From Treponema sp. (GTDB lineage Bacteria > Spirochaetota > Spirochaetia > Treponematales > Treponemataceae), in contig SHOL01000008.1 in the NCBI GenBank assembly GCA_004294945.1, positions 1 through 33,889 of the forward strand: a stretch of DNA of 33,889 nucleotides, given 5' to 3'. Position 1 is the first letter of the stretch. Every line of letters starts with the position of its first letter. Made by a program: the position numbers and the translations under genes. Under the pieces are notes generated by a model. That model did not search any database, was not told the DNA's origin, and saw only the letters and a program-made list of their open reading frames with translations. Of the stretch, positions 588 to 16,627 are shown piece after piece.

Positions 588-648
588 TTTACAAAACCGG
601 TTAAGTAATCGTAAAATGATGATAAACCGGTTTAGTAAACCGGTTCAT
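588..648 (+). promoter_or_regulatory. Promoter with three LacI-type operators upstream of the CBM48-barrel gene
   Basis: A -35 box TTTACA (588-593) and a -10 box TAAAAT (612-617) are 18 bases apart, predicting transcription from about 624. Palindromes with a central CG sit in the spacer (AACCGGTT, 595-602), on the start site (AAACCGGTTT, 624-633) and 13 bases further on (AACCGGTT, 638-645). A related palindrome AAACGTTT lies upstream at 550-557. Even palindromes with central CG are typical of LacI-family repressor sites. No such repressor is encoded in the window. The gene start has a strong GGAGG site, spaced normally from ATG 670. Confidence 0.7.
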
Positions 649-669: not shown

Positions 670-2604
670 ATGAAAAAGCTTACCGCTTTCATCGCTGCTC
701 TCCTGGTGCTCGGTTCATTCGTAATGGCCGACGTATCAGTAAAGGATCTCGGAGATGGTACTGCAGAAGTAACATTCTTCTACGGAAATCCGAAAGCAAG
801 CGAAGTTGTTGTTGCCGGTACATGGACTGACTGGGAAAAAGCTGCCCACCCCATGACCAAAGTGGAAAAAGGTTGGGAGTACAAAACTGTCCAGCCCCAC
901 GACGCAGTTCTCAAGTACAAGTTTATTTCCGACGGAAACTGGACTCCGGATCTCAAAGCTCCCGATAACACAGACGATGGTTTTGGCGGAAAGAACGGCC
1001 TTGTTGAAGTTGCAAAGCTTGTTGCCGTAGAAAAAGCAAAGGCGACCGGCGACACAGCCGCTCTGGAAAAACTCAGCGCAGCCGGACTGAAATTCGGTAT
1101 GTTCACTCAGGTTAACCTGAATACCAATTTTCTTACCCGCGGTGTTGCAGACAAGACAAAAGACGGATTCGAAACCGACAGTGTCCAGGTCCGCGCAAAG
1201 TCGTACTGGAAAATTTCCGGCGATATTCTTCCGAACATGCCTACTTACATTGAGCTCAAAGCTTTCGACGGTACCAAAAACATCTATGATGTAACTAATG
1301 CTGGCGTAGTGGATCCCAAGGTAGCCGATGGTCTGGATAGCTTCGCGACAGGCATGCTGTTTCACCCGTTCAATTACCTGAATGGTAACGAGAATTCTGT
1401 GCTCGGACATTTCAAGGCTGGACTGAACACACCTTTCGTCAACCTAGAAACCGGCTATAACTGGGCAAAACCCTCAAAGCGCGAAAACATCCTGTGGCTC
1501 ACTGTCAAGGACGGAGACGCCAATGCTGGTTACCTCCAGATTTCCAATGGTGCTAACATTCAGCAGTTCGGCGATGTCAAGATCGACGCAGCGCTTGTTC
1601 CAAACAAGAGCCAGGGCAATCTTGCAATGCGCAACTGGGTGAATGTTGCATACAAAGACATGGTAACCGCCGAAGTACAGTGGGATGTAAAGTCCAATGC
1701 TGCAGAGCAGGTTGGTTCCGAATTCTTCTCTGACTTCACCGGTAACGTAATTCCCGGCGCAAAGTTCAATATGTCCGGTTTCGACCTCAAGGCTCAGGCG
1801 TCAATTCCCGTTGCATCCGACAAAGTCGAAGACGGTATGGCATTTAAAGTGCTTGCCGGTTACGGAATGGATATGTTTGGTGTTACCGCTACCTATGGCA
1901 ATTACCAGAAAAATGCCTATTTGATGTACGGCGACGACGATCACGTCAAGAACAATGCCGAGAAGACCATTGTTGAGCTTAATCCCTGGGTTAAGCCCAT
2001 CGACGGCTTGAAGATTGGTCTTGACAACAAGATGACGACCAACGACAAGTTCGAAATGGATGTCAAGAATGAATTCAATTTCAAACCCTATGTCAACGTG
2101 GATCTTGGCAAGCTTGCTGCGGTCAAGATGACTGTAGACGGATATTCCAAGCTCTTCTTTGATGCGAATGCTGACGAAGATGCGTTCAAGTTCAACGAAC
2201 TCGGACTTAAGCTCGGCATGACTGAAGTTTCCGAAGCAGTGCCCTCGTTCGACGTGTACTACGGACTCCAGAATGCTGACATCAAGTCACTTCACACCCT
2301 TATTGCAAGCATGACCACCAAGCCCGGAATTGGTATTGATATTGGAACCGGCATCCGCCTGACCAATAGCGATGCGACCGAAGCAGAGGAAAAAGAAAAC
2401 TGCATGCTCGGATTTGTCATGGGAGCCGACTATAAGGTTAAAGCGCTCAAGGATGGTGTACTGTTCGGAGCATTTGTGTACAACATGGATCCGTACGATG
2501 ACGACAAGGACGACCTTAAGTGGAGCGACTATCGTCCGGACAAGGGTATTGACGACTTCGCCGGAAATGCCAAGTTCCGCCTCGGCATGAAGTGGGATTT
2601 CTAA
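670..2604 (+). CDS. Outer-membrane beta-barrel protein with N-terminal glycogen-binding (CBM48/AMPK-beta-like) domain
   Basis: The 644-residue product starts with a signal peptide (residues 1-20, cut after VMA). Residues 24-114 look like the AMPK-beta/CBM48 glycogen-binding fold: VVVAGTWTDW (47-55), KYKFISDGNW (82-91) and an Asn-Gly near 109, with Trp52, Trp55, Trp69 and Trp91 as possible sugar-contact residues. A short helical linker (115-138) leads to about 500 residues of alternating aromatic/polar sequence ending in MKWDF. A terminal Phe after amphipathic strands is the usual signature of proteins inserted in the outer membrane. I infer a glucan-binding porin for maltodextrins. It is the first gene of the operon, 15 bases before the repeat lipoprotein. 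The barrel family is not recognised; the fold is inferred from composition and the C-terminus. Confidence 0.72.
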   Translation: MKKLTAFIAALLVLGSFVMADVSVKDLGDGTAEVTFFYGNPKASEVVVAGTWTDWEKAAHPMTKVEKGWEYKTVQPHDAVLKYKFISDGNWTPDLKAPDNTDDGFGGKNGLVEVAKLVAVEKAKATGDTAALEKLSAAGLKFGMFTQVNLNTNFLTRGVADKTKDGFETDSVQVRAKSYWKISGDILPNMPTYIELKAFDGTKNIYDVTNAGVVDPKVADGLDSFATGMLFHPFNYLNGNENSVLGHFKAGLNTPFVNLETGYNWAKPSKRENILWLTVKDGDANAGYLQISNGANIQQFGDVKIDAALVPNKSQGNLAMRNWVNVAYKDMVTAEVQWDVKSNAAEQVGSEFFSDFTGNVIPGAKFNMSGFDLKAQASIPVASDKVEDGMAFKVLAGYGMDMFGVTATYGNYQKNAYLMYGDDDHVKNNAEKTIVELNPWVKPIDGLKIGLDNKMTTNDKFEMDVKNEFNFKPYVNVDLGKLAAVKMTVDGYSKLFFDANADEDAFKFNELGLKLGMTEVSEAVPSFDVYYGLQNADIKSLHTLIASMTTKPGIGIDIGTGIRLTNSDATEAEEKENCMLGFVMGADYKVKALKDGVLFGAFVYNMDPYDDDKDDLKWSDYRPDKGIDDFAGNAKFRLGMKWDF

Positions 2605-2619
2605 GGTCAGGAGATAACA

Positions 2620-3849
2620 ATGAAAAAGATACTTACCATACTTGCGGCTGCAGCCGCGATATTCGGAGCGGCCAGCTGCTCCACCGGCACCATGCATGAT
2701 GCCGAAGTGATGCTGGTCGAAAAAGTTGTTGTAGAAGGACTTACTGAACTTGTTGGACAGGAAATGGTAATTTCCGGCAACTGGATTCTTGGTAAAGATG
2801 GAACTTCTACATGGGTTCACGGTCTTGGAGATTCTTCCAAGATAGCCGCAGGCGCAATCGGTACTGTCGATGTGGATGGAAGAGTTGAGTTCAAGACGAA
2901 TCAGCTGACTTCCGAATCGACTCTCGAGTTCCTCGGAAAAGTTAACGAAGCTGGTTGGGTGAGCACGAAGCGTTTTGGCGAGAAAGCGTATGCCGACGAC
3001 AATGCCAAGATCCCTAATGCTTTCTCCGGTCCTCTTGTTCCCAAGACAATTCTTGGACGTGTTCAGCAAGATAAGAGTATCGAATGGTCTGTTGTAGATG
3101 CGATTGCTGAAAACCGAATGGTCATTAGCAAAGTTGTTGTTAAGAATCTCCCGGCTGCAACCTATCCTGATGGAACAATTCTCGAGTTCAAAGGATTTTT
3201 CAATGACGAGACATATCTTGCCACGAATGCAGCGGTGTCAGGCGGCGAAGCAACCCTCGAATTCCTCAAACCCGTTGTTGTAACTCAGGCAAATCCGACC
3301 TGGAAAGTGAAGAATGTTACTACTTGGGATAATGCTCTCGGTGTTTCCGTCGGTGGAAATGATGCAACTGTCGCGAATCCCTGCACCGGTCCTGACGTGG
3401 TGTACAAACTGATCGGAACAGTGAATGCTGACAATAGCATTGCCTGGGTTCTATCTGCAGCTGCGACTGACTACATTGTCGGCTGGGAAATTGTTGACGG
3501 CGAAGCTTCCAAATCATATGTAATCAATGGTTCGGCTCCTGCTTGGTCATTTGCATGGAACAACACTAGCGTTGCCATGATTACAACTGATGCTTCTGGA
3601 AAAGGAAGCAAGAACTTCCCTGACAAGTATGAGTTTAAACCGGCTGATGTTTTTACTGGTGCTGTACTTAAGGCTGATGGTTCGGGACCCGATTGGGACG
3701 TCGATAGGTTTACTGTAGATAACAAACCGGTTTCTACCATGACGTACAGCGTTGAAAAGACTGAAGATACGGTTTCTGACGAGTATGTCATCAGACTTAC
3801 CAGAACTGCTGAAAATAACTGGACCTGGTCTTTGGTGGTCGCCGAGTAA
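2620..3849 (+). CDS. Lipoprotein made of three related repeats, candidate surface glycan-binding protein
   Basis: The 409-residue product has a lipoprotein signal with lipobox AASC (Cys20). The mature part contains three related beta-rich units at about 34-160, 169-281 and 287-409. Each closes with a similar strand: GRVQQDKSIEWSVVDA, GTVNADNSIAWVLSAA and RTAENNWTWSLVVAE. Units 1 and 2 also share (S/A)TLEFL (101-105 and 212-216). The units are Trp- and Asn-rich, and unit 1 has VISGNW, which recalls the VVVAGTW strand of the preceding CBM48 domain. This layout is like the multi-domain starch-binding lipoproteins SusE/SusF of Bacteroidetes by analogy only; I do not recognise the family. An AGGAG site precedes ATG 2620, and the short gap from the barrel gene suggests one transcript and a shared task. 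Confidence 0.65.
   Translation: MKKILTILAAAAAIFGAASCSTGTMHDAEVMLVEKVVVEGLTELVGQEMVISGNWILGKDGTSTWVHGLGDSSKIAAGAIGTVDVDGRVEFKTNQLTSESTLEFLGKVNEAGWVSTKRFGEKAYADDNAKIPNAFSGPLVPKTILGRVQQDKSIEWSVVDAIAENRMVISKVVVKNLPAATYPDGTILEFKGFFNDETYLATNAAVSGGEATLEFLKPVVVTQANPTWKVKNVTTWDNALGVSVGGNDATVANPCTGPDVVYKLIGTVNADNSIAWVLSAAATDYIVGWEIVDGEASKSYVINGSAPAWSFAWNNTSVAMITTDASGKGSKNFPDKYEFKPADVFTGAVLKADGSGPDWDVDRFTVDNKPVSTMTYSVEKTEDTVSDEYVIRLTRTAENNWTWSLVVAE
3724..3733 (+). promoter_or_regulatory. Perfect operator-like palindrome inside the lipoprotein gene
   Basis: AAACCGGTTT, identical to the central operator at 624-633, lies inside the coding sequence. It may be an auxiliary site for DNA looping or a chance result of the codons Asn-Lys-Pro-Val. 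Confidence 0.3.
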
Positions 3850-4048: not shown

Positions 4049-4079
4049 AGGAAGTACGGGTGTACTTCCTCTTTTTTTT
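4047..4079 (+). terminator. Intrinsic terminator 23 bases before the first amylase start
   Basis: AGAGGAAGTAC (4047-4057) pairs perfectly with GTACTTCCTCT (4062-4072) around a GGGT loop, followed by a T run to 4079. It is the strongest terminator in the locus. No operator or clear promoter lies between it and the amylase start, so amylase expression may depend on read-through. Confidence 0.85.
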
Positions 4080-4101
4080 CTTTTCTGATGGAGGCAAGGT
4101 T

Positions 4102-5868
4102 TTGAAAATAGTAATGGTAGAGAAAAAAATGGGCGCAATTGTCACCTGTTTGATTCTTGCTATACAGATACTCAGTGCGGGAGGCTCGAAGGAGTCCGCA
4201 CCTGAAATTGCTCCGGTAGCCCCTGTCGCTTCCGCTCCCTCCCGCCTTTTCGAGTGGACCGGAAGCGAGGGGTATCGCAGCCCGATGGATTCGCGGATCG
4301 AGAAGGCGAATCTCGTGAATCAGGCGCAGGGTCTTGAAGAGGGCTGGGAGCGTGATTCTTCCTTTTATCACATTTGGGTAAAGTCTTTTAGCGATTACGA
4401 CGGCGACGGTATCGGAGATTTCCGGGGGATTACCGCCAAGCTCGATTACATCAAGAACGAAGTGGGCTGCGATGCGATCTGGCTTTCGCCGATATTCGAC
4501 TGCGCAGGTAAGGGGACGACCGCCGACTACAACATGCACGGCTACGATACGGTCGACTATTACAATGTGAACGACTATTTCGGAAATATGGAACACCTGG
4601 AAGAGCTTCTGCGCCAGGCACACGCGCGGGGCATGAAAGTGATTTTCGACTTTGTGCCGAACCATACCTCGAACCTGCATCCCTGGTTCCTTCAGTCGGC
4701 AAAACGGGAGAGCGGCAAGGACGACTGGTATCTGTGGAACAACGAAAAACTGTCCTGGAATGCGATGGGGAATGGGAATACCTGGTATTCGAATTACGAC
4801 CGGCAGCAGTTCTATTACGGCGCTTTCTGGTCGGGCATGCCCGATCTCAACTTCCGCAACCGCGAGGTTCGCGAAGAAATGAAGAACGTCGTCCGCTTCT
4901 GGCTTAACAAGGGTTTCGACGGACTCAGGATCGACGCTGTGCGGTATCTGGTCGAGGAAGACGGCGCCAAAGCAGGCCTTGTCGACACCGAAGCCACCCA
5001 CGACTGGTTCGAGGAGCTTCGGGCGGAAGTCGTCGACGCCTATGCTGAGCTGGGCTCCCCAAAGTTCATGATTTGCGAGGCCTGGGTGAACAACGATCGC
5101 ACGCGACTCGACCGCTACTACGGCACTACCGAGGTTCCCGAGTTCAATATGGTGTTCGATTTCGATTTTGCCGGAAAACTGACAATGGCTGCAAAGTACC
5201 GCAATCCGGAGTTCTTTTCGTTCCTGGAAAAGCAGTTGTTCAATCCCGGAAATCCCGTGCGTTATGCGACGTTCCTTTCGAACCACGACAATGTGTCGAA
5301 CCGTCCGGCGAGCGTATATAAAACACGCGAAGAACTGCGTCTTGCTTCGGCGATGCCGCTTCTTCTGCCTGCGACGCCGTTTATCTATTATGGAAACGAA
5401 ATCGGGCAGGAGGACCAGCCGGGGCTTTCCGGACAGGACCTGCGCCTGCGCTATCCGTTCGACTGGAAAAAAGCCGAAGCTCAGCTTTCAGACTCGAACT
5501 CTCTCTTGGCCATGCACCGGACGCTGCTCGGTCTTCGTGCGGCGCATCCTGCACTCAGAATCGGTTCGTATACTTCGGTTCCGGTGCAGGCGTCCGATGT
5601 GAAAACCGCTTATGCTTATCTTCTCCGGTCCGGCGGGGATGCAGTGCTGTGCGTGTTTAATCTCGGATTGGATGCTGTTCCTTCGCTTGCGATTGATAGC
5701 GGAAAGATAGCCGGCTTCGATATGCCTCGGACAGCCGACCTGTTGTACGCTTCTTCTGCGTCCGTTGTCCATTCATTGACCGATGGAACACTGACGCTCT
5801 CCGGAATGGACAGCCGTGATTTTGCGGTGTTTGCGCTAAAATTAGTCCTTGAGAGGATACTTTATTAA
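4102..5868 (+). CDS. GH13 alpha-amylase family enzyme, exported (first of a tandem pair)
   Basis: The start is TTG 4102, with GGAGG at 4090-4094 and a 7-base gap; upstream in-frame starts fall in the terminator. The product has 588 residues. A signal sequence (about 1-25) ends in ILSAGG, which looks like a lipobox with Gly in place of Cys, so the protein is probably exported but not lipidated. All GH13 motifs are present: DFVPNH (D183-H188), GLRIDAVRY with nucleophile Asp278, CEAW with acid/base Glu326, and SNHDN with Asp396. A calcium-loop sequence DYDGDGIGD stands near residue 90. The enzyme should cut alpha-1,4 glucans; exact specificity cannot be told. It overlaps the ribosome binding site of its paralogue, whose ATG begins 2 bases after this stop. 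Confidence 0.85.
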   Translation: MKIVMVEKKMGAIVTCLILAIQILSAGGSKESAPEIAPVAPVASAPSRLFEWTGSEGYRSPMDSRIEKANLVNQAQGLEEGWERDSSFYHIWVKSFSDYDGDGIGDFRGITAKLDYIKNEVGCDAIWLSPIFDCAGKGTTADYNMHGYDTVDYYNVNDYFGNMEHLEELLRQAHARGMKVIFDFVPNHTSNLHPWFLQSAKRESGKDDWYLWNNEKLSWNAMGNGNTWYSNYDRQQFYYGAFWSGMPDLNFRNREVREEMKNVVRFWLNKGFDGLRIDAVRYLVEEDGAKAGLVDTEATHDWFEELRAEVVDAYAELGSPKFMICEAWVNNDRTRLDRYYGTTEVPEFNMVFDFDFAGKLTMAAKYRNPEFFSFLEKQLFNPGNPVRYATFLSNHDNVSNRPASVYKTREELRLASAMPLLLPATPFIYYGNEIGQEDQPGLSGQDLRLRYPFDWKKAEAQLSDSNSLLAMHRTLLGLRAAHPALRIGSYTSVPVQASDVKTAYAYLLRSGGDAVLCVFNLGLDAVPSLAIDSGKIAGFDMPRTADLLYASSASVVHSLTDGTLTLSGMDSRDFAVFALKLVLERILY

Positions 5869-5869
5869 A

Positions 5870-8056
5870 ATGAAGAAAAAAGTTATGTTTTCAGGCGCCG
5901 GCAAGACCGGCGCCTTAAGCGGTGTTTTTGCTCGCTGCGTGCCCCGTTCTGCTGGTTCTGTTGCCCTGTTTGCGGTTGCAGCACTTTTGCTCCTGCTTGT
6001 TTCGTGCAAGGAACCGTCAGAACCAGAAAAAGCTCTATCAGACGGCGCTAATCTTTTTACCCTTACCGGCAGCGAAGACTATAGAAGCCCGAATCATAAG
6101 GAAATCGAGTCATCGAACCTGGTGAATCAGTCGAATAATCTTGAAGACGGTTGGTATCGTGATTCGTCCTTTTATCATATTTGGGTAAAGTCCTTCGCCG
6201 ATTCTACGACCGGACCGCTTGCAGGTGACGGCTGCGGCGATCTCAACGGCATTACCGAAAAGCTCGACTACATCAAAAATAAAGTAGGCTGCGATGCGAT
6301 CTGGCTTTCGCCTATTTTCGACTGCGCCTCAAAGGGCACCGCTGCGAGCTACAACATGCACGGCTACGATACCATCGACTATTACGCGATCAATCCCCGG
6401 TTCGGCACCAAAGAAGACCTGGGCAACCTGCTCGCAGCCGCACACGACCGTGGCATGAAGGTCATCTTCGACTTTGTCCCGAACCATACTTCCGACCAGC
6501 ATCCCTGGTTTGCCCAATCCGCACAGCGCGCGAACGGCAAGGACGACTGGTATCTATGGAGCGCCGAGGACCGACTCTGGAATCCGCTGGGAGGACGTTC
6601 CGCCTGGTACCGCAACTCCGCGCGTGATTCCTATTACTACGGCGCCTTTTGGGCCGGCATGCCCGATCTTAATTTTCGCAACCGCGAAGTCCGCGAGGAA
6701 CTGAAGAACGTCGCCCGATACTGGCTTAATTTCGGGTTCGACGGCCTGCGCATGGATGCAGTGCGCTACCTTGTGGAAGAACCAAACGACTTTACCGACA
6801 CCCAGGCTACCCACGACTGGTATGCCGAACTCCGCTCCGAGGTGATAGACGCATACGGATCCGATATTGGGGCAGCCCCGAAGTTTATGGTATGCGAGGC
6901 ATGGATCAATAACGATAGGGGAGCGCTCGACGCCTATTTCGGGACCGCCGCACGGGCAGAATTCGACATGGCGTTCGACTTCGATTTCCCAGGCCGTCTG
7001 TATTACTCGGTCATCTCCGGAACCGACTACGTTTCATCGATGGATGGCCTGTATGCGTCGGGCAGCGCGCCGGACAAGCGGTACGGCTCTTTTCTTTCCA
7101 ACCATGACAATGTCTCCAGCCGGCCCGCAACCTTCTTCGAAGGCGACCGGCTGGAACTGTACACGGCGCTGTCTCTCCTTCAGCCCACGACGCCTTTTAT
7201 TTACTACGGAAACGAAATCGCGCAAAAAGACGGGTCTGGATACGGCAGCGAAGATATAAGGCTTCGCCTATCGTTGGATTGGAATGTTGCGCAGAGCGCG
7301 ATTCAGGCCGTGGAGCTGGGCGCTGCTCAAGGTTTGACTCCCTCAGGCGATCCGGCTTCGATTCTCGCGCTCCACAAGGCGCTGCTCGTTCTCAGGCGGG
7401 ATCATGCGGCGTTCAGAACCGGTGCGATGACCGCGGTTAAAGCGTTTGCGGCTGATACCGGAGCTGTGGCCGATCTTCCCCGCGGATTCGCGGCGTACAC
7501 GTTGACCGATTCGTCTGCCGGCGAAACCTTTCTCTGTGTGTTCAATCTGGAGAACTGTAAGAAGTATATCGATCTTTCCCTTTCCCTCTCCGGCTATTCG
7601 AGCGCTTCGACGCTTGTCGGCCGCCCGACCTGCGTTTCCGCCGACGGTTCATCCGTGACAGTGTCGTCGTTCGGTCCCTATGCTGTGCGCGTGTACCAGC
7701 TCGGCGGCCCTGCGGATTCCGAATCGACGTCTCCGCTGTATAACTCGGAAAGCACCGGTTCTTCGATGTATTTGCGCGGCAGTTTTAATGACTGGAAGCC
7801 AGACATTCCGATGACTTATTCTATAGTAGAAAACGAAGTTGTATGGACTGCCGATGTCGAGCTTTTGGCCGGAACACATACGTTTAAGTTCGACTCCTCC
7901 GGAGCGAAGACAGAGTGGCCTGATGGACAGAACTGGGGCGGGACGGACGGCGCGAATATGAGTTATACCGCTGCGACTTCCGGCATGTATCGGTTCAGTT
8001 TCAATTTTTCGAGAATGAGATGTGACGTCGAACTGCTGGAAGGTGCCGGTGTCTAA
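5870..8056 (+). CDS. GH13 alpha-amylase family lipoprotein with C-terminal starch-binding-like domain
   Basis: ATG 5870 gives 728 residues; an in-frame TTG at 5849 inside the previous gene is less likely. A hydrophobic stretch ends in LLVSC (Cys46), so this is a lipoprotein with an unusually long amino-terminal part. The catalytic region closely resembles the preceding amylase, including the block DSSFYHIWVKSF. Motifs are DFVPNH, GLRMDAVRY (Asp296), CEAW (Glu343) and SNHDN (Asp413). The calcium-type loop is replaced by an insertion (DSTTGPLAGDGCGD). Residues 631-728 add a domain absent from the paralogue, with LRGSFNDW, FKFD and WPDGQNWGG, like CBM20/48-type starch-binding modules. It is probably surface or periplasmic and acts on larger glucans. 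A hairpin (GGCGCCGG with CCGGCGCC, 5894-5914) lies early in the gene. Confidence 0.85.
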   Translation: MKKKVMFSGAGKTGALSGVFARCVPRSAGSVALFAVAALLLLLVSCKEPSEPEKALSDGANLFTLTGSEDYRSPNHKEIESSNLVNQSNNLEDGWYRDSSFYHIWVKSFADSTTGPLAGDGCGDLNGITEKLDYIKNKVGCDAIWLSPIFDCASKGTAASYNMHGYDTIDYYAINPRFGTKEDLGNLLAAAHDRGMKVIFDFVPNHTSDQHPWFAQSAQRANGKDDWYLWSAEDRLWNPLGGRSAWYRNSARDSYYYGAFWAGMPDLNFRNREVREELKNVARYWLNFGFDGLRMDAVRYLVEEPNDFTDTQATHDWYAELRSEVIDAYGSDIGAAPKFMVCEAWINNDRGALDAYFGTAARAEFDMAFDFDFPGRLYYSVISGTDYVSSMDGLYASGSAPDKRYGSFLSNHDNVSSRPATFFEGDRLELYTALSLLQPTTPFIYYGNEIAQKDGSGYGSEDIRLRLSLDWNVAQSAIQAVELGAAQGLTPSGDPASILALHKALLVLRRDHAAFRTGAMTAVKAFAADTGAVADLPRGFAAYTLTDSSAGETFLCVFNLENCKKYIDLSLSLSGYSSASTLVGRPTCVSADGSSVTVSSFGPYAVRVYQLGGPADSESTSPLYNSESTGSSMYLRGSFNDWKPDIPMTYSIVENEVVWTADVELLAGTHTFKFDSSGAKTEWPDGQNWGGTDGANMSYTAATSGMYRFSFNFSRMRCDVELLEGAGV

Positions 8057-8206: not shown

Positions 8207-8252
8207 TAATAGTGCGGTTATACTGAACTAAACCGGTTAATTAAACCGTTTT
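8195..8252 (+). promoter_or_regulatory. Promoter with two operators upstream of the pullulanase gene
   Basis: TTGCAC (8195-8200) and TATACT (8219-8224) are 18 bases apart. AACCGGTT (8231-8238) sits on the predicted start point, and AAACCGTTTT (8243-8252) lies 13 bases further, the same spacing as the two downstream sites before gene 670. The -35 box is weak. Confidence 0.65.
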
Positions 8253-8268
8253 ACTTTCTGGAGGAATC

Positions 8269-11088
8269 ATGTTGAAAAGAAAACATGCGCTTATTTCTGC
8301 CGTTATTCTGGCAGGCGCATTGCTTGCGACTCTTTCGTGCGCTTCAGGCCCTGCGGACCAGAAAGCGGCCGCTGCCAATACCGCAGCCAAGGGTGCGCTT
8401 TCTGCGGCTCCCGGTACGTTCGAAAACGCTGCTCCCGCAGGGTTGCCCGAAGTAATCAAGCTCAGTGAAAAGCTTCAGCCCAAAGAAGATGAACTGGTAA
8501 TTTTCTATGTCCGAAAAGACAAGGATTATGCTCCTTGGGCTTTGTGGCTGTGGGCAATTCCCGGCGGAGACGGTTCCGCCGCCTGGCCCAAAACCCAGGA
8601 ATGGAAAGTGGAAGACGGTATTGGCTACATGCGCTTCAAGCTTGACGGTTCCGATCTTGGTATAAAGCCGATCGGGTCGGACGGCCAGCTTGGCATGATT
8701 GCCCGTCAGAAAGCCGGCTGGACGAAGGATGGCGACGATGACCGCGTGTGGGATACGAATGTCTCGAACTCCGTTGTCATTTTCTCCGGAGACAACAATA
8801 CCTATGCCGCCCGTGAATACAAGCCGAAGGCTATGTCTGCGGTTCTCTCGACCACTACCGAAATTCAGGTTACCCTGAGTGGCCGCTACGGGCTCGATAC
8901 CGACGGAGGCGCTTCCGGTTTCTCTGTTGTTACCAAAGACGGAAAAGAGTATCCGATTGCTAAAGTATTCAATGCCGAAAGTCCGGACGATCTTACCAAA
9001 AATAACGCGCGCCGCCTGGTGATCCAGCTCAAGGAACCCATCAGCGCATCTGACGCCCTGGTTCTCAAGAATCCGGTTTTCGAAGGAGACAAGCAGATCG
9101 ACGGATCAAAGCTTGCCGTCCAGCTTGCGGAAAAAGCAATGCCGGCCAAAGACGCGGTTCTTGGTGCTGTCTACAATGCGAAAACCAAATCTGCTTCTTT
9201 TTCTCTGTGGGCGCCCACTTCTTCGGCAGCAACGCTTAACTTGTATCGCAAGGATCAGGCAACTGCCGCGGATTATACCGTACCCATGACATACGACGCC
9301 GCTACCGGTATATGGTCTGCAACGTTCAGCGAAGCTGATCCGGACGGTTTCTTCTATGACTTCACTCTGAGCAATGCTAAGGGTTCTGTTGCTGTACTTG
9401 ATCCCTATGCCCGCTCGATGGCAGCCTATCGCAACAAGGGCGGTTCAGGCCGCGCTGCAGTGGTCAACATGGCTTCTCCCCGCGCCCTGCCTGCAGGCGG
9501 CATGAATGCCGGTTTTGTTCCGCTCAAGCAGCGCGAAGATGCCGTTATCTATGAAATGTCCGTACGCGATTTCACGATCAGCGCCGACGCGGGTGTTAAA
9601 GCCGCTCCCGGAACGTACCTTGCGTTTATCGAAAAACTGCCCTACCTCAAGAGTCTAGGAATTACTCATGTGCAGCTGATGCCGGTTGTCAATTTCTATT
9701 TTACCGATGAAACAAACCGTGCGTTCGAAGACAGCGGTACAGTCAGCAATAACAACTACAACTGGGGGTACGATCCGCACAATTACTTTACTCCCGAAGG
9801 CTGGTTTGCAACTGATGCCGAGGATCCCTATGCTCGTATAGCCGAACTGCGTACGCTGATAAACGAATGCCACAAGGCCGGTATTGGCGTGCTTCTTGAC
9901 GTTGTCTACAATCACATGGCGGGAACTTCCTTCCTTGACGATATCGTTCCCGGCTATTTCTTCCGCACGAATGCCCAGGGAAAACTGACCAGCAATTCCG
10001 GCTGCGGTAACGACGTTGCAACCGAGCGTGCCATGGCGCGCAAGTTGATCGTCGATTCTGTCCGCCATTGGGTTACCGAGTACAAAGTGGACGGATTCCG
10101 TTTTGACCTTATGGGATTAATGGACAGCCAGACTGTGCTCGATTCCTACGCAGCGGCGAAAGCGGTAAATCCGGCGACTCTGTTCGAAGGCGAAGGCTGG
10201 AAAATGTATAACGGCGCCACCGGCACCGTCGGTCTTGATCAGGCATACATGACAAAAACCGACTCTGTTGCCGTATTCAACGACGAAATCCGCGATCTGA
10301 TGAAGGCTGGAGGTTTTAACGAGCAGGGCAAGGGATTCCTTACCAGACAGGGACCGAATACCGAGAAGCTCTTCAAGAACATTCTTGGTCAGCCCCAGGC
10401 AAACTATAAAGCCGACGATCCGGGCGACAATCTTCAGTATCTTGTTGCGCACGACGGTTTGACCCTGCGCGATACCATTGCGCACAACGCAAAGCTCGAT
10501 GACTCCGATCCCGTGCAAAAGGCGGAACTGATCAAACGTATCAAGCTTGGAAACTTTACCCTCCTGACATCTCAGGGAATTGCATTCCTGCATGGCGGAC
10601 AGGAACGGGGCAGAACCAAGCCCAATTTCACCGATTCGAAAAATGAAACAATCGGCAAGTTTGTACGGAACAGTTATGACTCTTCCGACAATATCAACCA
10701 GATTGTATGGACGCTTGATTCAGACTATAAGACGGTTCTCGATTATACCTCATCTATGATTGCGCTTCGTAGAACCTTCGATGTATTCCGTATCGGCGAT
10801 ATGGCACAAGTCAATGCCGCAGCCGCTCTGCTTCCCTGCCCGGAAGACAATCGTCTGACTCTTGGCTATGTCCTGAACTGGACCGATGGAACTTGGCTTG
10901 TTCTGGCAAATGCCGAAACAAAAGCGATGACATTTACCGTTCCTGTATCGGTTGACGGCGCGACGGTATTCGCCGACGCAAACGGTGCGCAGGTTTCCGG
11001 AATTGCAAGCCCTGCAGGGGTTACCCTTGCCGGCACTTCTGTGACGCTGGCTCCGCTTTCCGCAGCCGTTATCAGAGTAACAAAATAA
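8269..11088 (+). CDS. pulA: Type I pullulanase lipoprotein (debranching enzyme)
   Basis: The 939-residue product starts at ATG 8269 behind GGAGG and has a lipoprotein signal with lipobox TLSC (Cys24). Domains in order are an Ala-rich linker (25-60), a pullulanase-associated PUD/CBM41-like module (about 72-180, with ALWLWAIPGG and DRVWDT), an intermediate beta domain (about 190-285), a CBM48-like module (about 297-395, FSLWAPTSSAATLNLY) and a GH13 barrel. The signature YNWGYDP (497-503) marks type I pullulanases. Catalytic residues are Asp613 in GFRFDLMG, Glu642 in GEGW and Asp729 in AHDGLTL. It should cut alpha-1,6 branches of pullulan, starch or glycogen outside the cytoplasm, feeding linear maltodextrins to MalEFG. 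It has its own operator-bearing promoter and appears to be monocistronic. Confidence 0.92.
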   Translation: MLKRKHALISAVILAGALLATLSCASGPADQKAAAANTAAKGALSAAPGTFENAAPAGLPEVIKLSEKLQPKEDELVIFYVRKDKDYAPWALWLWAIPGGDGSAAWPKTQEWKVEDGIGYMRFKLDGSDLGIKPIGSDGQLGMIARQKAGWTKDGDDDRVWDTNVSNSVVIFSGDNNTYAAREYKPKAMSAVLSTTTEIQVTLSGRYGLDTDGGASGFSVVTKDGKEYPIAKVFNAESPDDLTKNNARRLVIQLKEPISASDALVLKNPVFEGDKQIDGSKLAVQLAEKAMPAKDAVLGAVYNAKTKSASFSLWAPTSSAATLNLYRKDQATAADYTVPMTYDAATGIWSATFSEADPDGFFYDFTLSNAKGSVAVLDPYARSMAAYRNKGGSGRAAVVNMASPRALPAGGMNAGFVPLKQREDAVIYEMSVRDFTISADAGVKAAPGTYLAFIEKLPYLKSLGITHVQLMPVVNFYFTDETNRAFEDSGTVSNNNYNWGYDPHNYFTPEGWFATDAEDPYARIAELRTLINECHKAGIGVLLDVVYNHMAGTSFLDDIVPGYFFRTNAQGKLTSNSGCGNDVATERAMARKLIVDSVRHWVTEYKVDGFRFDLMGLMDSQTVLDSYAAAKAVNPATLFEGEGWKMYNGATGTVGLDQAYMTKTDSVAVFNDEIRDLMKAGGFNEQGKGFLTRQGPNTEKLFKNILGQPQANYKADDPGDNLQYLVAHDGLTLRDTIAHNAKLDDSDPVQKAELIKRIKLGNFTLLTSQGIAFLHGGQERGRTKPNFTDSKNETIGKFVRNSYDSSDNINQIVWTLDSDYKTVLDYTSSMIALRRTFDVFRIGDMAQVNAAAALLPCPEDNRLTLGYVLNWTDGTWLVLANAETKAMTFTVPVSVDGATVFADANGAQVSGIASPAGVTLAGTSVTLAPLSAAVIRVTK

Positions 11089-11154: not shown

Positions 11155-11216
11155 TTGACAGGTTTAGTTAATAGTTTAATACTTAATTAACCGGTTTACA
11201 CTCTGTGTTCCGGTTC
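11155..11216 (+). promoter_or_regulatory. Promoter with operators upstream of malE
   Basis: A perfect TTGACA (11155-11160) is followed by overlapping -10 candidates TTTAAT (11175-11180) and TAATAC (11177-11182). The palindrome AACCGGTT (11189-11196) lies at the same distance past the -10 as in the other two promoters. A partial site (TTCCGGTT) is centred 19 bases further, at 11211.5. Confidence 0.65.
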
Positions 11217-11246
11217 GTTAAAAGAATCTCAGGAGGAGAAGAGAAA

Positions 11247-12449
11247 ATGAAAAAGCTGATTTGTGTGCTTGTTGCAATCAGTCTCGTTGCCGGTGCCGCT
11301 TTTGCGAGCGGCGGTGCGGACGCTAAGGGAAAATCCGGAAAGATTACCCTTAAAGTATGGGAATCGGAAGGTCCCGAAAAAGATTTTATTCTGTGGGCAG
11401 CCGCTGAATTCAAGAAAACCTATCCGAATGTCGACATTACCTACGAACCCGTCGGTTCAGTCGACGCTCGCGCTAAAATTGAACTGGACGGTCCTGCCGG
11501 AGTCGGTGCCGACGTCTTTGTCGCTCCTCACGATCATCTTGGTGCCCTGATCAACGGTGGACACGTTCTTGAGAACACCGATCCGAACTTCAAGGCTTCT
11601 TTTGTTGATGCAGCCGTTATCGGTTCCACCTACAACGGAAAAGTGTATGGATATCCCCAAGGTATCGAAACCTATGCCCTTTTCTACAACAAGGACATCA
11701 TCAAGACCGCTCCCAAGACTTGGGCAGAAGTCGAAGCGTTTGCAAAAACCTGGAACAACAAGGCAGACAACAAGTACGCCATTGTCTGGGAAGTAGCGAA
11801 TGCCTATTTTGACTACATTTTCATGGGCGGTTTCGGCGCTCCGCTGTTCGGACCGAACGGTAACGATCGCACCCAGCATAATATCAACAGCGCGAATGCC
11901 GTGGCAGGACTGAAGTACTTCCAGTCTCTCCGCAAGAACATCCTTGATGTACCCTCCGCAGATATGAGCGGCGACTTCTGCAACTCTTCGTTCGTAGAAG
12001 GAAAAGCTCCGATGATCATCACCGGACCCTGGAAGATCAACGACTATACCAAGGCAAACCTGAACTACGGCATCGCTCCGATTCCGGTGTTCCCGAACCA
12101 GAAAACTGCTCCGGCATCTTTCTCCGGTGTGCGCCTTGCCTTTGTCAGTGCATATACCGATTATCCTGCCGAAGCAGCCGCTTTTGCACAGTTCCTTACC
12201 TCCAAGGAAGTGCTTGCCAAGCGCTATGAAGTTACCAAGCAGATTCCTCCCCGCAAGGACATCACTATCAGTGATCCTCTGAGCGCTGGAATTCTTGCCC
12301 AGGCGCAGTTTGCAACTCCGATGCCGACTATTCCCCAGATGGGAACCTACTGGTCGGCCATGGGTGCCGCATTTGCGAGCATCTGGGATGGTGCCGATGT
12401 GCAGAAAGAGCTTAATTCCGCTGCAGCAGCAATGGAAGCAGCCAAATAA
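11247..12449 (+). CDS. malE: Maltodextrin ABC transporter substrate-binding protein
   Basis: ATG 11247 follows AGGAGG at 11231-11236 and gives 400 residues. A signal peptide covers about 1-20; the region FASGG has no lipobox Cys, so a soluble periplasmic form is predicted unless another anchor exists. The mature part has the family-1 solute-binding pattern: ITLKVWESEG, EFKKTYPNVDITYEPV, ADVFVAPHDHLGALINGG, VYGYPQGIETYALFYNKD and GPWKINDY. These match MalE/cyclodextrin-binding proteins over the whole length. It should deliver maltodextrins to MalFG encoded next, and the long structured gap to malF may set a high MalE:MalF ratio. Substrate range is inferred from the neighbouring amylases and pullulanase. 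Confidence 0.88.
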   Translation: MKKLICVLVAISLVAGAAFASGGADAKGKSGKITLKVWESEGPEKDFILWAAAEFKKTYPNVDITYEPVGSVDARAKIELDGPAGVGADVFVAPHDHLGALINGGHVLENTDPNFKASFVDAAVIGSTYNGKVYGYPQGIETYALFYNKDIIKTAPKTWAEVEAFAKTWNNKADNKYAIVWEVANAYFDYIFMGGFGAPLFGPNGNDRTQHNINSANAVAGLKYFQSLRKNILDVPSADMSGDFCNSSFVEGKAPMIITGPWKINDYTKANLNYGIAPIPVFPNQKTAPASFSGVRLAFVSAYTDYPAEAAAFAQFLTSKEVLAKRYEVTKQIPPRKDITISDPLSAGILAQAQFATPMPTIPQMGTYWSAMGAAFASIWDGADVQKELNSAAAAMEAAK

Positions 12450-12462
12450 TCTGAACGGCTGA

Positions 12463-12534
12463 ACGGGATTGCGGCCTCCTGACTCCTCTAAAACTCAATG
12501 AGTTTTCCGGGGAAGCGCGGAGGCCGTATCCCGT
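12463..12534 (+). other. Extended stem-loop between malE and malF
   Basis: ACGGGAT (12463-12469) pairs with ATCCCGT (12528-12534), and CGGCCTCC (12472-12479) pairs with GGAGGCCG (12519-12526). Inside the loop AAAACTC (12490-12496) pairs with GAGTTTT (12500-12506). There is no T run. It probably protects the malE mRNA or lowers read-through into malF. Confidence 0.6.
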
Positions 12535-12566
12535 ATTTCTTTTTATATTGGAATGGAGTGTGCTAC

Positions 12567-13937
12567 ATGAGTCGACAGGACGCTGGTATCAACGAACAAA
12601 TTATCAAGAAAGCGCCGATAGCATCGGCGTGCTTCATGGGTCTTGGACAGATCCTGTATCTGAAACAGTACCTCCGTGGAGCCGTATTCGCACTTCTGGA
12701 ACTTATTATGCTGTTTTTCACAGTATTTGAATCCGGAACATTTATCCCCAATTTTAGAGGGCCAATTGTAAAATCCCTTGTGGGTCTGATTACTCTTGGA
12801 GACCCGAAGCCGGATCTGCCGGTAAAACTCCGCGATCATTCGATCTTTATGCTGGTCACCGGACTTATTGTCCTGATTGTTGTAGTTTTGTATGTTGCTG
12901 TGTACGTATTCAATATCAAAGATGCGAAAGCTTCTGCGATTCAAATTGTAGAAAAAAAGAGGTTTCCTACCTATACGGAAACCAGAAATCATATTCAGGA
13001 AGCAGCCTTTCCCTATATCGGACTTACTCCCGTAGTTGTGCTGCTGGCTTTCTTTACCGTTGTTCCCTTGCTGTTCTCCGCTCTGGTTGCCTTTACCAAT
13101 TATTCTTCTCCGGATCATATTCCGCCGAACAATCTGGTAGACTGGGTTGGTTTTGAAAACTTCCGGACAATGTTTACCGCTTCTGCGAATAACAGCTGGT
13201 TTTCGGCTTTTGGACGGGTTGCCGCCTGGACCGTTATCTGGGCTTTCGCGTCGACTCTGACCTGCTATGCCGTCGGCATGCTGTTTGCCGTTGTTCTTGT
13301 GGATCACCGCATCAAGATTGCTAAAGTGTTCCGCACCATTTTTATCCTCCCGTATGCTATCCCGACCATGCTCAGCCTTTTTATCTGGCAGAACCTCTTG
13401 AATGGAACCTTCGGGCCGATCAACCGGACGCTTATCGAGCTCGGGTTGATAAGCAATCCCATACCCTGGCTCTCTGATCCAAACATGGCGCGAATTACAC
13501 TCATTCTGGTCAATATCTGGATCGGCTTTCCCTATAGCATGATTCTTGTTACCAGCAACATGACGGCAATACCGTCCCAGCTGTATGAAGCCGCGATTAT
13601 CGACGGCGCAAACAAGTGGAACCAGTTCAAGTCGATTACCCTGCCGCTGGTATTGTTCCAGACTATGCCGCTGCTGATCATGCAGTTTGCCGGAAACATC
13701 AACAACTTCGGCGCAGTATTCTTCCTGACGGCCGGCGATCCGAAAGTCAGCGATACGATTACGACTCAGGCCGGTGCAACCGATCTTATGATTTCCTGGA
13801 TTTATAAACTCACCATGAATACGCCGAATATGTACAATCTTGCTTCAGTTCTGTCCATTCTGGTATTCATTGTGCTCGTTCCGTTTGCGGTCTACAACTT
13901 TACGCAGACCAAATCGTTCAAGGATGGTGAACTCTGA
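12567..13937 (+). CDS. malF: Maltodextrin ABC transporter permease MalF
   Basis: I choose ATG 12567, preceded by GGAG (12555-12558), over an in-frame ATG at 12498 that lies in the structured gap. The product has 456 residues and about eight membrane spans. The first part (LRGAVFALLELIMLFF, then FMLVTGLIVLIVVVLYVAVY) is an N-terminal extension, followed by the permease core with the coupling loop YEAAIIDGANKWNQFKSITL, the EAA motif that contacts the ATPase. It would pair with MalG, whose ATG overlaps its stop by one base (TGATG). No ATPase gene is present here; an MsmK/UgpC-like ATPase encoded elsewhere is usual for such operons. Confidence 0.9.
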   Translation: MSRQDAGINEQIIKKAPIASACFMGLGQILYLKQYLRGAVFALLELIMLFFTVFESGTFIPNFRGPIVKSLVGLITLGDPKPDLPVKLRDHSIFMLVTGLIVLIVVVLYVAVYVFNIKDAKASAIQIVEKKRFPTYTETRNHIQEAAFPYIGLTPVVVLLAFFTVVPLLFSALVAFTNYSSPDHIPPNNLVDWVGFENFRTMFTASANNSWFSAFGRVAAWTVIWAFASTLTCYAVGMLFAVVLVDHRIKIAKVFRTIFILPYAIPTMLSLFIWQNLLNGTFGPINRTLIELGLISNPIPWLSDPNMARITLILVNIWIGFPYSMILVTSNMTAIPSQLYEAAIIDGANKWNQFKSITLPLVLFQTMPLLIMQFAGNINNFGAVFFLTAGDPKVSDTITTQAGATDLMISWIYKLTMNTPNMYNLASVLSILVFIVLVPFAVYNFTQTKSFKDGEL

Positions 13938-14845
13938 TGACATACGCACCGGGGAAAAAAAGACATTCCAAGTCCAGTACGGTTTTTGTCACTTCAATAC
14001 TGTATATCTTTTTGACAATAACCGTTCTTGTAGTAGTGTATCCTGTCGCGTTTACAATCGGCGCGGCATTTACCGAAACCAACTCGCTGGCATCCACCAG
14101 GCTTGTACCCTGGCCGGAAAAACCGTCGTTCTACCAATTTCAGCGCCTTCTGACACCTTCAAGTCAGACTGTCGTCGGCACGGTAGACGTACGTGGCACC
14201 AACTATCTGGTGTGGTACCGCAATACGCTCAAGATCGCAATAGTGAACACCCTGTGTACTCTCGCGATTTGCGTTACTTCCGGCTATGTTTTCTCGCGCT
14301 TCCGTTTCCGGGCCCGCAAACCGATGATGGCCACAATCGTTGTCCTCCAGATGTTCCCGAGCTTTATCGGAATGATCGCGACGTATGTTATTCTGTGGCG
14401 AATCGGCGGACTCAACACCCATTGGGGACTGATACTTGTCTATGTTACGGGAAGCATTCCGTTCAACTCCTGGCTTATGAAAGGCTACTTTGATACCGCA
14501 GTTTCCAAGAGCATCGAAGAAGCTGCCCGCGTTGACGGCGCAAACCAGATTACTACCTTTATCAAAATTGTTATCCCGATGGTTAAACCGATGATTATGT
14601 TCCTTGCTCTTTCGAGCTTTACCAGCCCCTGGATGGATTTTATCTTCCCGCGCCTGATTCTGCGCAGCGATGATAAAAAAACGTTGGCGGTCGGTTTGTT
14701 CGAACTGATCAACGGCCGCGCGAACGACAACTTTACCATGTTTGCTGCCGGCGCCTTGCTGGTTGCAGTTCCGTTCGCAATTCTCTTTATGTCCGGCCAG
14801 AAATTCCTTCTTAAATCGATGGCTGGCGACGGTACCAAGGAATAA
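13937..14845 (+). CDS. malG: Maltodextrin ABC transporter permease MalG
   Basis: The 302-residue product has six predicted membrane spans and the EAA loop SIEEAARVDGANQITTFIKI. Its ATG overlaps the malF stop by one base, so translation is probably coupled. The segment after the first span (residues about 40-85, with TRLVPWPEKPSFYQFQRLL) matches the periplasmic P2-like part of MalG-type permeases. It completes the importer with MalE and MalF. A strong terminator follows 19 bases after the stop, closing the malEFG transcript. Confidence 0.9.
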   Translation: MTYAPGKKRHSKSSTVFVTSILYIFLTITVLVVVYPVAFTIGAAFTETNSLASTRLVPWPEKPSFYQFQRLLTPSSQTVVGTVDVRGTNYLVWYRNTLKIAIVNTLCTLAICVTSGYVFSRFRFRARKPMMATIVVLQMFPSFIGMIATYVILWRIGGLNTHWGLILVYVTGSIPFNSWLMKGYFDTAVSKSIEEAARVDGANQITTFIKIVIPMVKPMIMFLALSSFTSPWMDFIFPRLILRSDDKKTLAVGLFELINGRANDNFTMFAAGALLVAVPFAILFMSGQKFLLKSMAGDGTKE

Positions 14846-14944: not shown

Positions 14945-16627
14945 ATGATAACCGGATCAACAAATTCTTTGCGCACCCAGAGGCGCAGCCTTCTGGCATT
15001 GCTCGCAATCGTCTGTATCCTTTTTGGTGCAGCCTCCTGTGCGTCGGGTCGGGCCGAGTCGATTGACCCGACAAAAGCAGTCACACAGCTTGCTCCCCTG
15101 CCACGCCGCGCACAGACCCCTACTGCCGGGGTCTACTACTGCATTTTTGTCCGATCCTTCGCAGACTCAAATGGCGACGGAATCGGCGATTTCAAGGGTA
15201 TGACCGCTCGTCTGGACTACCTCAACGACGGAAACGACCGTACAACCTCTGATCTGGGGGTAACTGGAATTTGGCTGTTGCCGATATTCCCCTCCCAATC
15301 GTATCATGGCTACAACGTTGACGATTATTACGGCGTAAATCCCGACTATGGCACGCTTGCCGACTTCGAAGAGTTTCTTTCCGAAGCGGAAAAACGCGGT
15401 ATTTCGGTTATCATAGACATGACCTGCAATCATTCTTCCTTATATACAGACTGGTTTATCGAATCCCGCAACAAGGACAGTCCGTATCGCGGATGGTACC
15501 GCTGGGTTGAAGATGGCGACACCAGGTATAACCTGAATCAGAAGATATGGGGACATAATCTCTGGAACTACTACGAAGGTGCCTATTATGCAGGCCTTTT
15601 CGAAAGCGGCATGCCCGACTTTAACCTGTCCAATCCTGCCGTCCGCGAAGAGTTCAAGAACATTGCTTCGTACTGGATCGGGAAGGGTGTAGACGGATTC
15701 CGCTTTGACGCGGCCGGCCATGTGTTCAACGCCGCCAAGCTCGCAGCAGGGGAAGAGTCCCAATCCCAGGGCGTTGCCTTCTGGAAAGAACTTGTCGGCC
15801 ATGTACGGTCTGTAAAACCGGACGCCTACACAGTCGGAGAAGTGTGGGAGCCTACTTCCACGCGTGCTGTCTATATGCAGGGCCTTGGATCCACCTTCCA
15901 TTTTGATCTGGGTACAAAAATTGTAGACGCAATACGAGAAGGATCCGGGGGAAAAAATAATATTGCAAACTCCTTGTACGGCGATTACACAACCTACAAA
16001 GAAATGAATCCTGACTATATCGATGCACCATTCCTGACGAACCACGATCAAAACAGAATTTCAGGAATGCTCAGGGGCGATTCTCGGCTTCTCAAATTAT
16101 CTGCGTCTTTGTATATTCTTGCGGAAGGAGTTCCTTTCATGTATTACGGCGAAGAAATCGGCCTGATGGGTGCCAAGCCCGACGAGCAGATCCGTACGCC
16201 GATGCTGTGGAACGACCCGGGGAAAGACCGGCTGCAAACCAGCTGGATCGAGTCGAAATATAACAAGAATACCATACCGGTCAGCCGTCAGCAAAAAGAT
16301 CCTGAATCGCTGCTTAATTACTACAAGCGGCTTATTCGGGTAAAAACTGCGCATTCCGCCCTGTTTGAGGGCCGATTTACTGCGGTGGCTACCGATGCTT
16401 CGGAAATTGTATCCTGGAAGATGGAATCGCAGAAGGAAAAAGCCTTTGTTCTGCATAACCTGTCTCCTGAACCTGTTACCCTGGTTTTGCCGCCGGAAGC
16501 GCTTGGAGCCGATGGCGCGCCGATGCCGCTGATCTTTGCCGGTTCTTCCGGTGTAACGATTACCGGTACGTCCATAACCCTGCCCCCGCGGGAGTCTGCA
16601 GTTCTCGCGGCAGCTTCCGCCCAATAA
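14945..16627 (+). CDS. GH13 alpha-amylase/alpha-glucosidase family lipoprotein
   Basis: ATG 14945 follows GGAGG (14931-14935) and gives 560 residues. The signal has lipobox GAASC (Cys32). Motifs include the calcium loop DSNGDGIGD, DMTCNHSS (region I), GFRFDAAGH with nucleophile Asp255, VGEVW with Glu299 and TNHDQN with Asp368. The short lid and DSNGDGIGDFKGMTARLDYL resemble the oligosaccharide-cutting branch of GH13 (oligo-1,6-glucosidase and neopullulanase relatives), so it may trim short maltodextrins before uptake; specificity is inferred. It lies after the malG terminator and has no operator palindrome, unlike the other transcripts of the locus, so it may be read through or expressed separately. 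It is distinct from the tandem amylase pair. Confidence 0.85.
   Translation: MITGSTNSLRTQRRSLLALLAIVCILFGAASCASGRAESIDPTKAVTQLAPLPRRAQTPTAGVYYCIFVRSFADSNGDGIGDFKGMTARLDYLNDGNDRTTSDLGVTGIWLLPIFPSQSYHGYNVDDYYGVNPDYGTLADFEEFLSEAEKRGISVIIDMTCNHSSLYTDWFIESRNKDSPYRGWYRWVEDGDTRYNLNQKIWGHNLWNYYEGAYYAGLFESGMPDFNLSNPAVREEFKNIASYWIGKGVDGFRFDAAGHVFNAAKLAAGEESQSQGVAFWKELVGHVRSVKPDAYTVGEVWEPTSTRAVYMQGLGSTFHFDLGTKIVDAIREGSGGKNNIANSLYGDYTTYKEMNPDYIDAPFLTNHDQNRISGMLRGDSRLLKLSASLYILAEGVPFMYYGEEIGLMGAKPDEQIRTPMLWNDPGKDRLQTSWIESKYNKNTIPVSRQQKDPESLLNYYKRLIRVKTAHSALFEGRFTAVATDASEIVSWKMESQKEKAFVLHNLSPEPVTLVLPPEALGADGAPMPLIFAGSSGVTITGTSITLPPRESAVLAAASAQ

Follow-up and report, generated by a model that had tools for sequence, protein, structure and literature searches.

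A CBM48 domain on a predicted 24-stranded outer-membrane barrel, with a lipoprotein partner, looks like an undescribed route for starch fragments in spirochaetes

The outer-membrane channels LamB and ScrY are 18-stranded, and ScrY carries an N-terminal periplasmic extension, a coiled coil, before its barrel. In SusC/SusD systems the barrel gene is directly followed by a lipoprotein gene, and a lipoprotein amylase bearing a SusG_C domain is encoded nearby; CBM48 domains are carried by the AMPK β subunit and GH13 enzymes; and the 24-stranded ushers PapC and FimD hold an Ig-like plug of a size similar to CBM48. To our knowledge, the passage of polysaccharide fragments across the spirochaete outer membrane is poorly understood. 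Here we describe an intact, 644-residue ORF (670-2604, + strand) with a clear signal peptide in a Treponema sp. contig (SHOL01000008.1), analysed over a window of 33,889 nucleotides, in which a CBM48 domain is joined to a predicted outer-membrane β-barrel.

Each of the described systems matches this locus in part. Like LamB and ScrY, the product is predicted to form a channel in the outer membrane, and its gene lies in a locus for maltodextrin uptake that includes MalEFG, but about 24 strands are predicted in place of 18, a glucan-binding module takes the place of the coiled coil of ScrY in the N-terminal extension, and the barrel matches neither the LamB maltoporin family (PF02264) nor any other Pfam family, with 33 members scanned. 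The SusC/SusD arrangement recurs in the barrel-lipoprotein gene order and the nearby lipoprotein amylase with SusG_C, whereas by profile the partner lipoproteins show no relation to SusD, no Plug match was found by Pfam in the CBM48-barrel protein, which argues against SusC membership, and onward uptake would proceed via a MalEFG ABC transporter. The domain belongs to the same family as the AMPK β glycogen-binding domain and the CBM48 of GH13 enzymes, with the same glycogen-contact residues, but sits on an outer-membrane barrel and not on a kinase subunit or enzyme. Ushers share the 24-strand barrel and give the best fold match; their extra domain, however, lies between strands, whereas here it is N-terminal, and usher Pfam domains, chaperone genes and pilin genes are all absent. 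The features of the locus are collected in Table 1.

Table 1. Features of the CBM48-barrel locus, in coordinates of the window
Feature	Position	Strand	Basis
Three operator-like palindromes, AAACCGGTTWA-like (594-604, 624-634, 637-647), upstream of CBM48-barrel gene	594..647	.	Motif count
Signal peptide MKKLTAFIAALLVLGSFVMA, aa 1-20	670..729	+	Sequence; kept in homologues
CBM48 / AMPK-β-type glycogen-binding domain, aa 21-116	730..1017	+	Pfam, alignment, PDB profile, fold match
Ala-rich helical linker, aa 117-138, length varies among homologues	1018..1083	+	Alignments, AlphaFold
Predicted 24-stranded outer-membrane β-barrel, aa 139-644, ends in MKWDF	1084..2601	+	AlphaFold, Foldseek, loop parity
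Lipoprotein P0002 (lipobox ...FGAASC), up to three ~130-aa β modules	2620..3849	+	Lipoprotein gene kept here in homologous loci
GH13 α-amylase	4060..5868	+	Pfam
GH13 lipoprotein amylase, C-terminal AMPK1_CBM-like domain	5849..8056	+	Pfam
Operator-like palindromes upstream of pullulanase gene	8230..8253	.	Motif count
Lipoprotein pullulanase (PUD, CBM48, GH13)	8269..11088	+	Pfam, NCBIfam
Operator-like palindrome upstream of malE-like gene	11187..11198	.	Motif count
MalE-like solute-binding protein	11205..12449	+	Pfam, NCBIfam
MalF- and MalG-like permeases (12498-13937, 13937-14845)	12498..14845	+	Pfam, NCBIfam
Lipoprotein GH13 amylase with SusG C-terminal domain	14945..16627	+	

The identity of the N-terminal domain rests on agreement between profile, structure and ligand-contact residues. 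Residues 42-116 match Pfam AMPK1_CBM (PF16561) at an E-value of 1.5e-7 and 31.9 bits against a cut-off of 26.8; the match to CBM_48 (PF02922) is weak, at 22.5 bits against a cut-off of 22.4 in the six-frame search and 19.2 bits in hmmscan. Glycogen-binding domains of AMPK β-1 were the top matches of the whole protein by phmmer, and a domain profile built from 27 sequences retrieved LSF1 (2.3e-9) and the AMPK β-1 glycogen-binding domain (7.7e-9) from the PDB. In a Foldseek search of a viral library, the full-length model matched an AMPK glycogen-binding-domain protein over 82 columns at 1.2 Å rmsd with a probability of 1.00, and porins were matched separately by the same model. Residues W100, K126, W133 and N150 of AMPK β-1 are critical for carbohydrate binding (PMC4032982), and correspond to W55, K84, W91 and N109 in the phmmer alignment. 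W55, K84 and N109 are invariant in all homologues of alignment A2 in which the position is present, while W91 is Trp or Tyr. Membership in the CBM48/AMPK1_CBM group is thus confirmed, and the conserved glycogen-contact residues, together with the locus, point to α-glucan as the putative ligand.

The remainder of the protein was modelled by AlphaFold with 37 sequences (mean pLDDT 82.8, pTM 0.72) as an all-β domain (aa 20-113), two short helices (aa 114-135) and 24 strands (aa 139-643). Foldseek returned the 24-stranded ushers PapC and FimD as best solved folds at TM 0.40-0.45, with AlgE, LptD, porins and TonB-dependent receptors ranking behind them; no relative of the barrel was found among PDB sequences. 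The predicted model combines the signal peptide, antiparallel barrel, C-terminal aromatic residue, short periplasmic turns and long external loops of outer-membrane β-barrels. With strands numbered 1-24, outward-facing loops total 167 residues, with insertions spanning 234 alignment columns, compared with 48 residues and 24 columns for the periplasm-facing loops, a split reached by random picks of 12 of the 23 loops 8 times per 200,000. An even strand number and a C-terminal aromatic residue place both ends of a barrel in the periplasm in established barrel topology. Because loop lengths and insertions alternate, and because the model has an even strand count and the C-terminal aromatic, both termini are predicted to be periplasmic and CBM48 to face the periplasm or sit in the lumen.

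The preliminary description of this DNA had proposed a CBM48/AMPK-β-like domain directly after the signal peptide, fused to an outer-membrane barrel. The AMPK1_CBM match, the PDB profile and the 1.2 Å fold match bear out the former, and the 24 modelled strands with their Foldseek matches to outer-membrane barrels the latter; neither a model lacking a barrel nor an N-terminal part lacking the CBM48 fold, the two outcomes named there as refuting, was seen in the predicted structure and fold search. Its domain limits (aa 24-114) were right in location and are better set at about aa 21-116, and of its two proposed placements the periplasmic side (or the lumen) stands, while a surface location is rejected on loop parity.

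The gene downstream of the barrel encodes a lipoprotein, and this order is strongly conserved. A script placed a lipoprotein gene directly downstream of the barrel gene in 37 of 40 loci, mostly 14-28 bp away. One further case (L073, at about 21 bp) was missed by the script, the sequence of another (L064) stops 2 bp past the match, and L077 is the only locus without a downstream lipoprotein; the order therefore holds in 38 of the 39 homologous loci that have downstream sequence. Among other ORFs of at least 400 aa in the same loci, 29 of 128 have a lipoprotein gene next downstream. Because paralogues of the barrel without CBM48 also precede a lipoprotein gene (five of six, the sixth lying near a contig end), barrel and lipoprotein look like the core unit, with CBM48 as an attached module. 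The partner lipoproteins are diverse, at ~130 to ~640 aa, and the short ones match the first ~130-aa module of P0002. P0002 itself had no match by phmmer or NCBIfam, its AlphaFold model is poor (pLDDT 58) with unconvincing fold matches, and no SusD family match was found in it (Pfam, NCBIfam) or in ten partner lipoproteins. As a guess, P0002 may be a SusE/F-like starch-binding lipoprotein, the one pointer in that direction being a CBM_20 starch-binding match above cut-off in a distant partner lipoprotein (L069).

The CBM48-barrel gene is the first of a plus-strand run of genes for the lipoprotein, amylase, pullulanase, MalE/F/G-like proteins and SusG_C amylase. The AMPK1_CBM-like domain of the second amylase scores 26.4 bits, just below cut-off. 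Copies of the palindrome AAACCGGTTWA deviating by no more than one letter stand upstream of three genes, namely the barrel gene (three copies), the pullulanase gene and malE. With at most two mismatches, the window holds 24 matches against 10.1 expected, a number reached by none of 100 shuffles; the 2.7-Mb genome has 13 palindrome matches per strand, several of them within the window. These common palindromes suggest that the barrel, pullulanase and malE units are probably co-regulated. The context recurs elsewhere: 11 loci of other genomes have a close pullulanase (45-72% identity) in the vicinity of the barrel gene, and six have a MalE-like gene (65-73% identity) there.

Homologues are widespread among spirochaetes. 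Scanning genome contigs with the single protein as query gave no match, and an alignment query recovered 45 loci in named genomes, nearly all in spirochaetes and including Gracilinema caldarium, Rectinema subterraneum, Brucepastera parasyntrophica, Treponema porcinum, T. saccharophilum and T. ruminis. Matches were present in 21 of 59 genomes of the same order, some to the CBM48 part alone. A phylum-wide sample, in which two candidates per genome were scored so that counts are minima, holds complete or almost complete members in four families of the order (f1, f3, f4, f5) and four of the class (f6, f9, f12, f19); CBM48-barrel homologues thus span at least eight spirochaete families. Conservation across the family rules out chance or artefact. 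In seven loci (L042, L043, L044, L048, L054, L055, L098) CBM48-barrel genes stand in tandem with one small lipoprotein gene between them, the second copy being strongly diverged.

Several more distant CBM48 proteins were also seen. L089, L091 and L092 encode proteins of 775-954 aa with an N-terminal CBM48 and a long β-rich region ending like a barrel, and are possibly further barrel types bearing the module. Outside the spirochaetes, CBM48 proteins in Eisenbacteria (L080, 10001-11435) and Verrucomicrobia (L082) both end in DDGFGGKNS, and in L080 the protein is followed by an 889-aa ORF that opens with another CBM48-like stretch. A membrane helix combined with a C-terminal CBM48 marks a group of short proteins (L023, L026, L024, L025, L027, L028) that is seemingly widespread in the phylum; L023 and L026 also carry, near the N-terminus, an H-x3-C-x2-C-like motif resembling that of zinc-binding anti-sigma factors, which makes a glucan-sensing anti-sigma factor possible.

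Comparison of paralogues within genomes revealed an uneven pattern of conservation. In several same-genome pairs the CBM48 residues agree at 97-100% and the barrel residues at 35-74%; several MAG contigs break within this repeat, and those cases need care. In T. porcinum, an isolate, the CBM DNA of L051 and L056 agrees at 99% and its third positions at 97%, compared with 75% and 61% for the barrel, and L063 and L069, on one 117-kb contig, have 86% of CBM and 27% of barrel residues in common. A same-genome pair in T. saccharophilum (42% and 40%), like some other pairs, lacks this pattern. Because the third-codon agreement is not easily explained by protein selection, these comparisons indicate that the CBM48 module is exchanged as a cassette between divergent barrels, by recombination or gene conversion. 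In the CBM48-less barrel paralogues L083-L087 the signal peptide is followed by a conserved DGF motif (for example EADDGFIVPLNEDF); this is perhaps a relic of the last CBM48 strand (DDGFGG), in which case the domain would have been lost by deletion.

We consider it probable that the protein forms an outer-membrane channel dedicated to α-glucan oligosaccharides as substrate, with a periplasmic CBM48 and a lipoprotein partner, a reading in which we infer transport, ligand, handover and complex formation. Lipoprotein amylases and the pullulanase would cleave starch or glycogen, and the resulting malto- and branched oligosaccharides would pass through the barrel. CBM48, tethered at the periplasmic end or plugging the lumen, would bind them and pass them on to the MalFG transporter and its MalE-like binding protein, and the downstream lipoprotein would work with the barrel as its dedicated partner, much as SusD works with SusC. 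Among 80 sampled Treponemataceae-level genomes LamB is absent from all and SusD present in one; another outer-membrane route for glucans is therefore needed, for which the CBM48-barrel is the natural candidate. TonB-plug proteins, which 38 of these 80 genomes encode, as does the window's own genome (78% complete), could provide an alternative route. Against the dedicated channel stand the top structural match to a protein-secretion usher, albeit at TM ~0.45 and without usher Pfam domains, and the possibility that some family members lie in other glycan loci. The uptake device unlike maltoporin or SusCD envisaged in the preliminary description is thus upheld as regards the fusion and its α-glucan locus, with transport itself put forward as likely; its CBM48 stays at the pore, but rather than handing glucans to the channel the domain would more likely receive or hold those leaving it.

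Other readings differ in where CBM48 sits or in what the barrel carries. A variant of the dedicated channel, differing in the position of CBM48, has the domain as a plug that closes a wide pore without glucan and is moved by glucan binding, making the pore ligand-gated; it would share the possession of a plug with ushers and TonB-dependent receptors but would work without TonB. A 24-stranded barrel would be very wide if unplugged, CBM48 is an Ig-like sandwich directly before strand 1, and the ushers that best match the barrel have an Ig-like plug; the variable length of the Ala-rich linker, however, suggests a flexible tether, and barrel paralogues without CBM48 exist, and we regard plugging as a possibility of lesser weight. 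The strong divergence of the barrels (often 25-40% identity) behind a conserved CBM would also suit a general porin without sugar preference whose CBM48 binds periplasmic glucan of the cell itself, or has an anchoring or sensing role, but genes and operators are joined with amylases, pullulanase and MalEFG in a context that recurs in many genomes, which makes this improbable. Export of polysaccharide or protein, to which the top Foldseek matches (PapC/FimD, AlgE, LptD) might point, is very improbable, since by sequence the barrel falls into none of the usher, AlgE and LptD families, the neighbourhood lacks genes for chaperones, pilins or polymerases, and uptake genes are all around. Returning to glucan import, a TonB-free, 24-stranded glycan importer gated or plugged by a CBM, with a dedicated lipoprotein and barrels swapped behind a conserved CBM48 cassette, would be a new type, a suggestion that we make tentatively.

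A search of the open literature found neither a CBM48 on a porin nor a description of such a system in spirochaetes; most subscription journals lie outside that search and may hold an earlier description. As far as we have found, this is the first CBM48 described on a pore. The CBM48-barrel and its lipoprotein, present in many starch-eating spirochaetes, look like an undescribed route for starch fragments across the outer membrane. A barrel present across the class, with its own glucan-receiving domain and a partner lipoprotein, would offer a testable answer to how glucans enter spirochaetes, and cultured species in which to test it include Treponema saccharophilum, T. ruminis, Gracilinema caldarium, Rectinema subterraneum and Brucepastera parasyntrophica.
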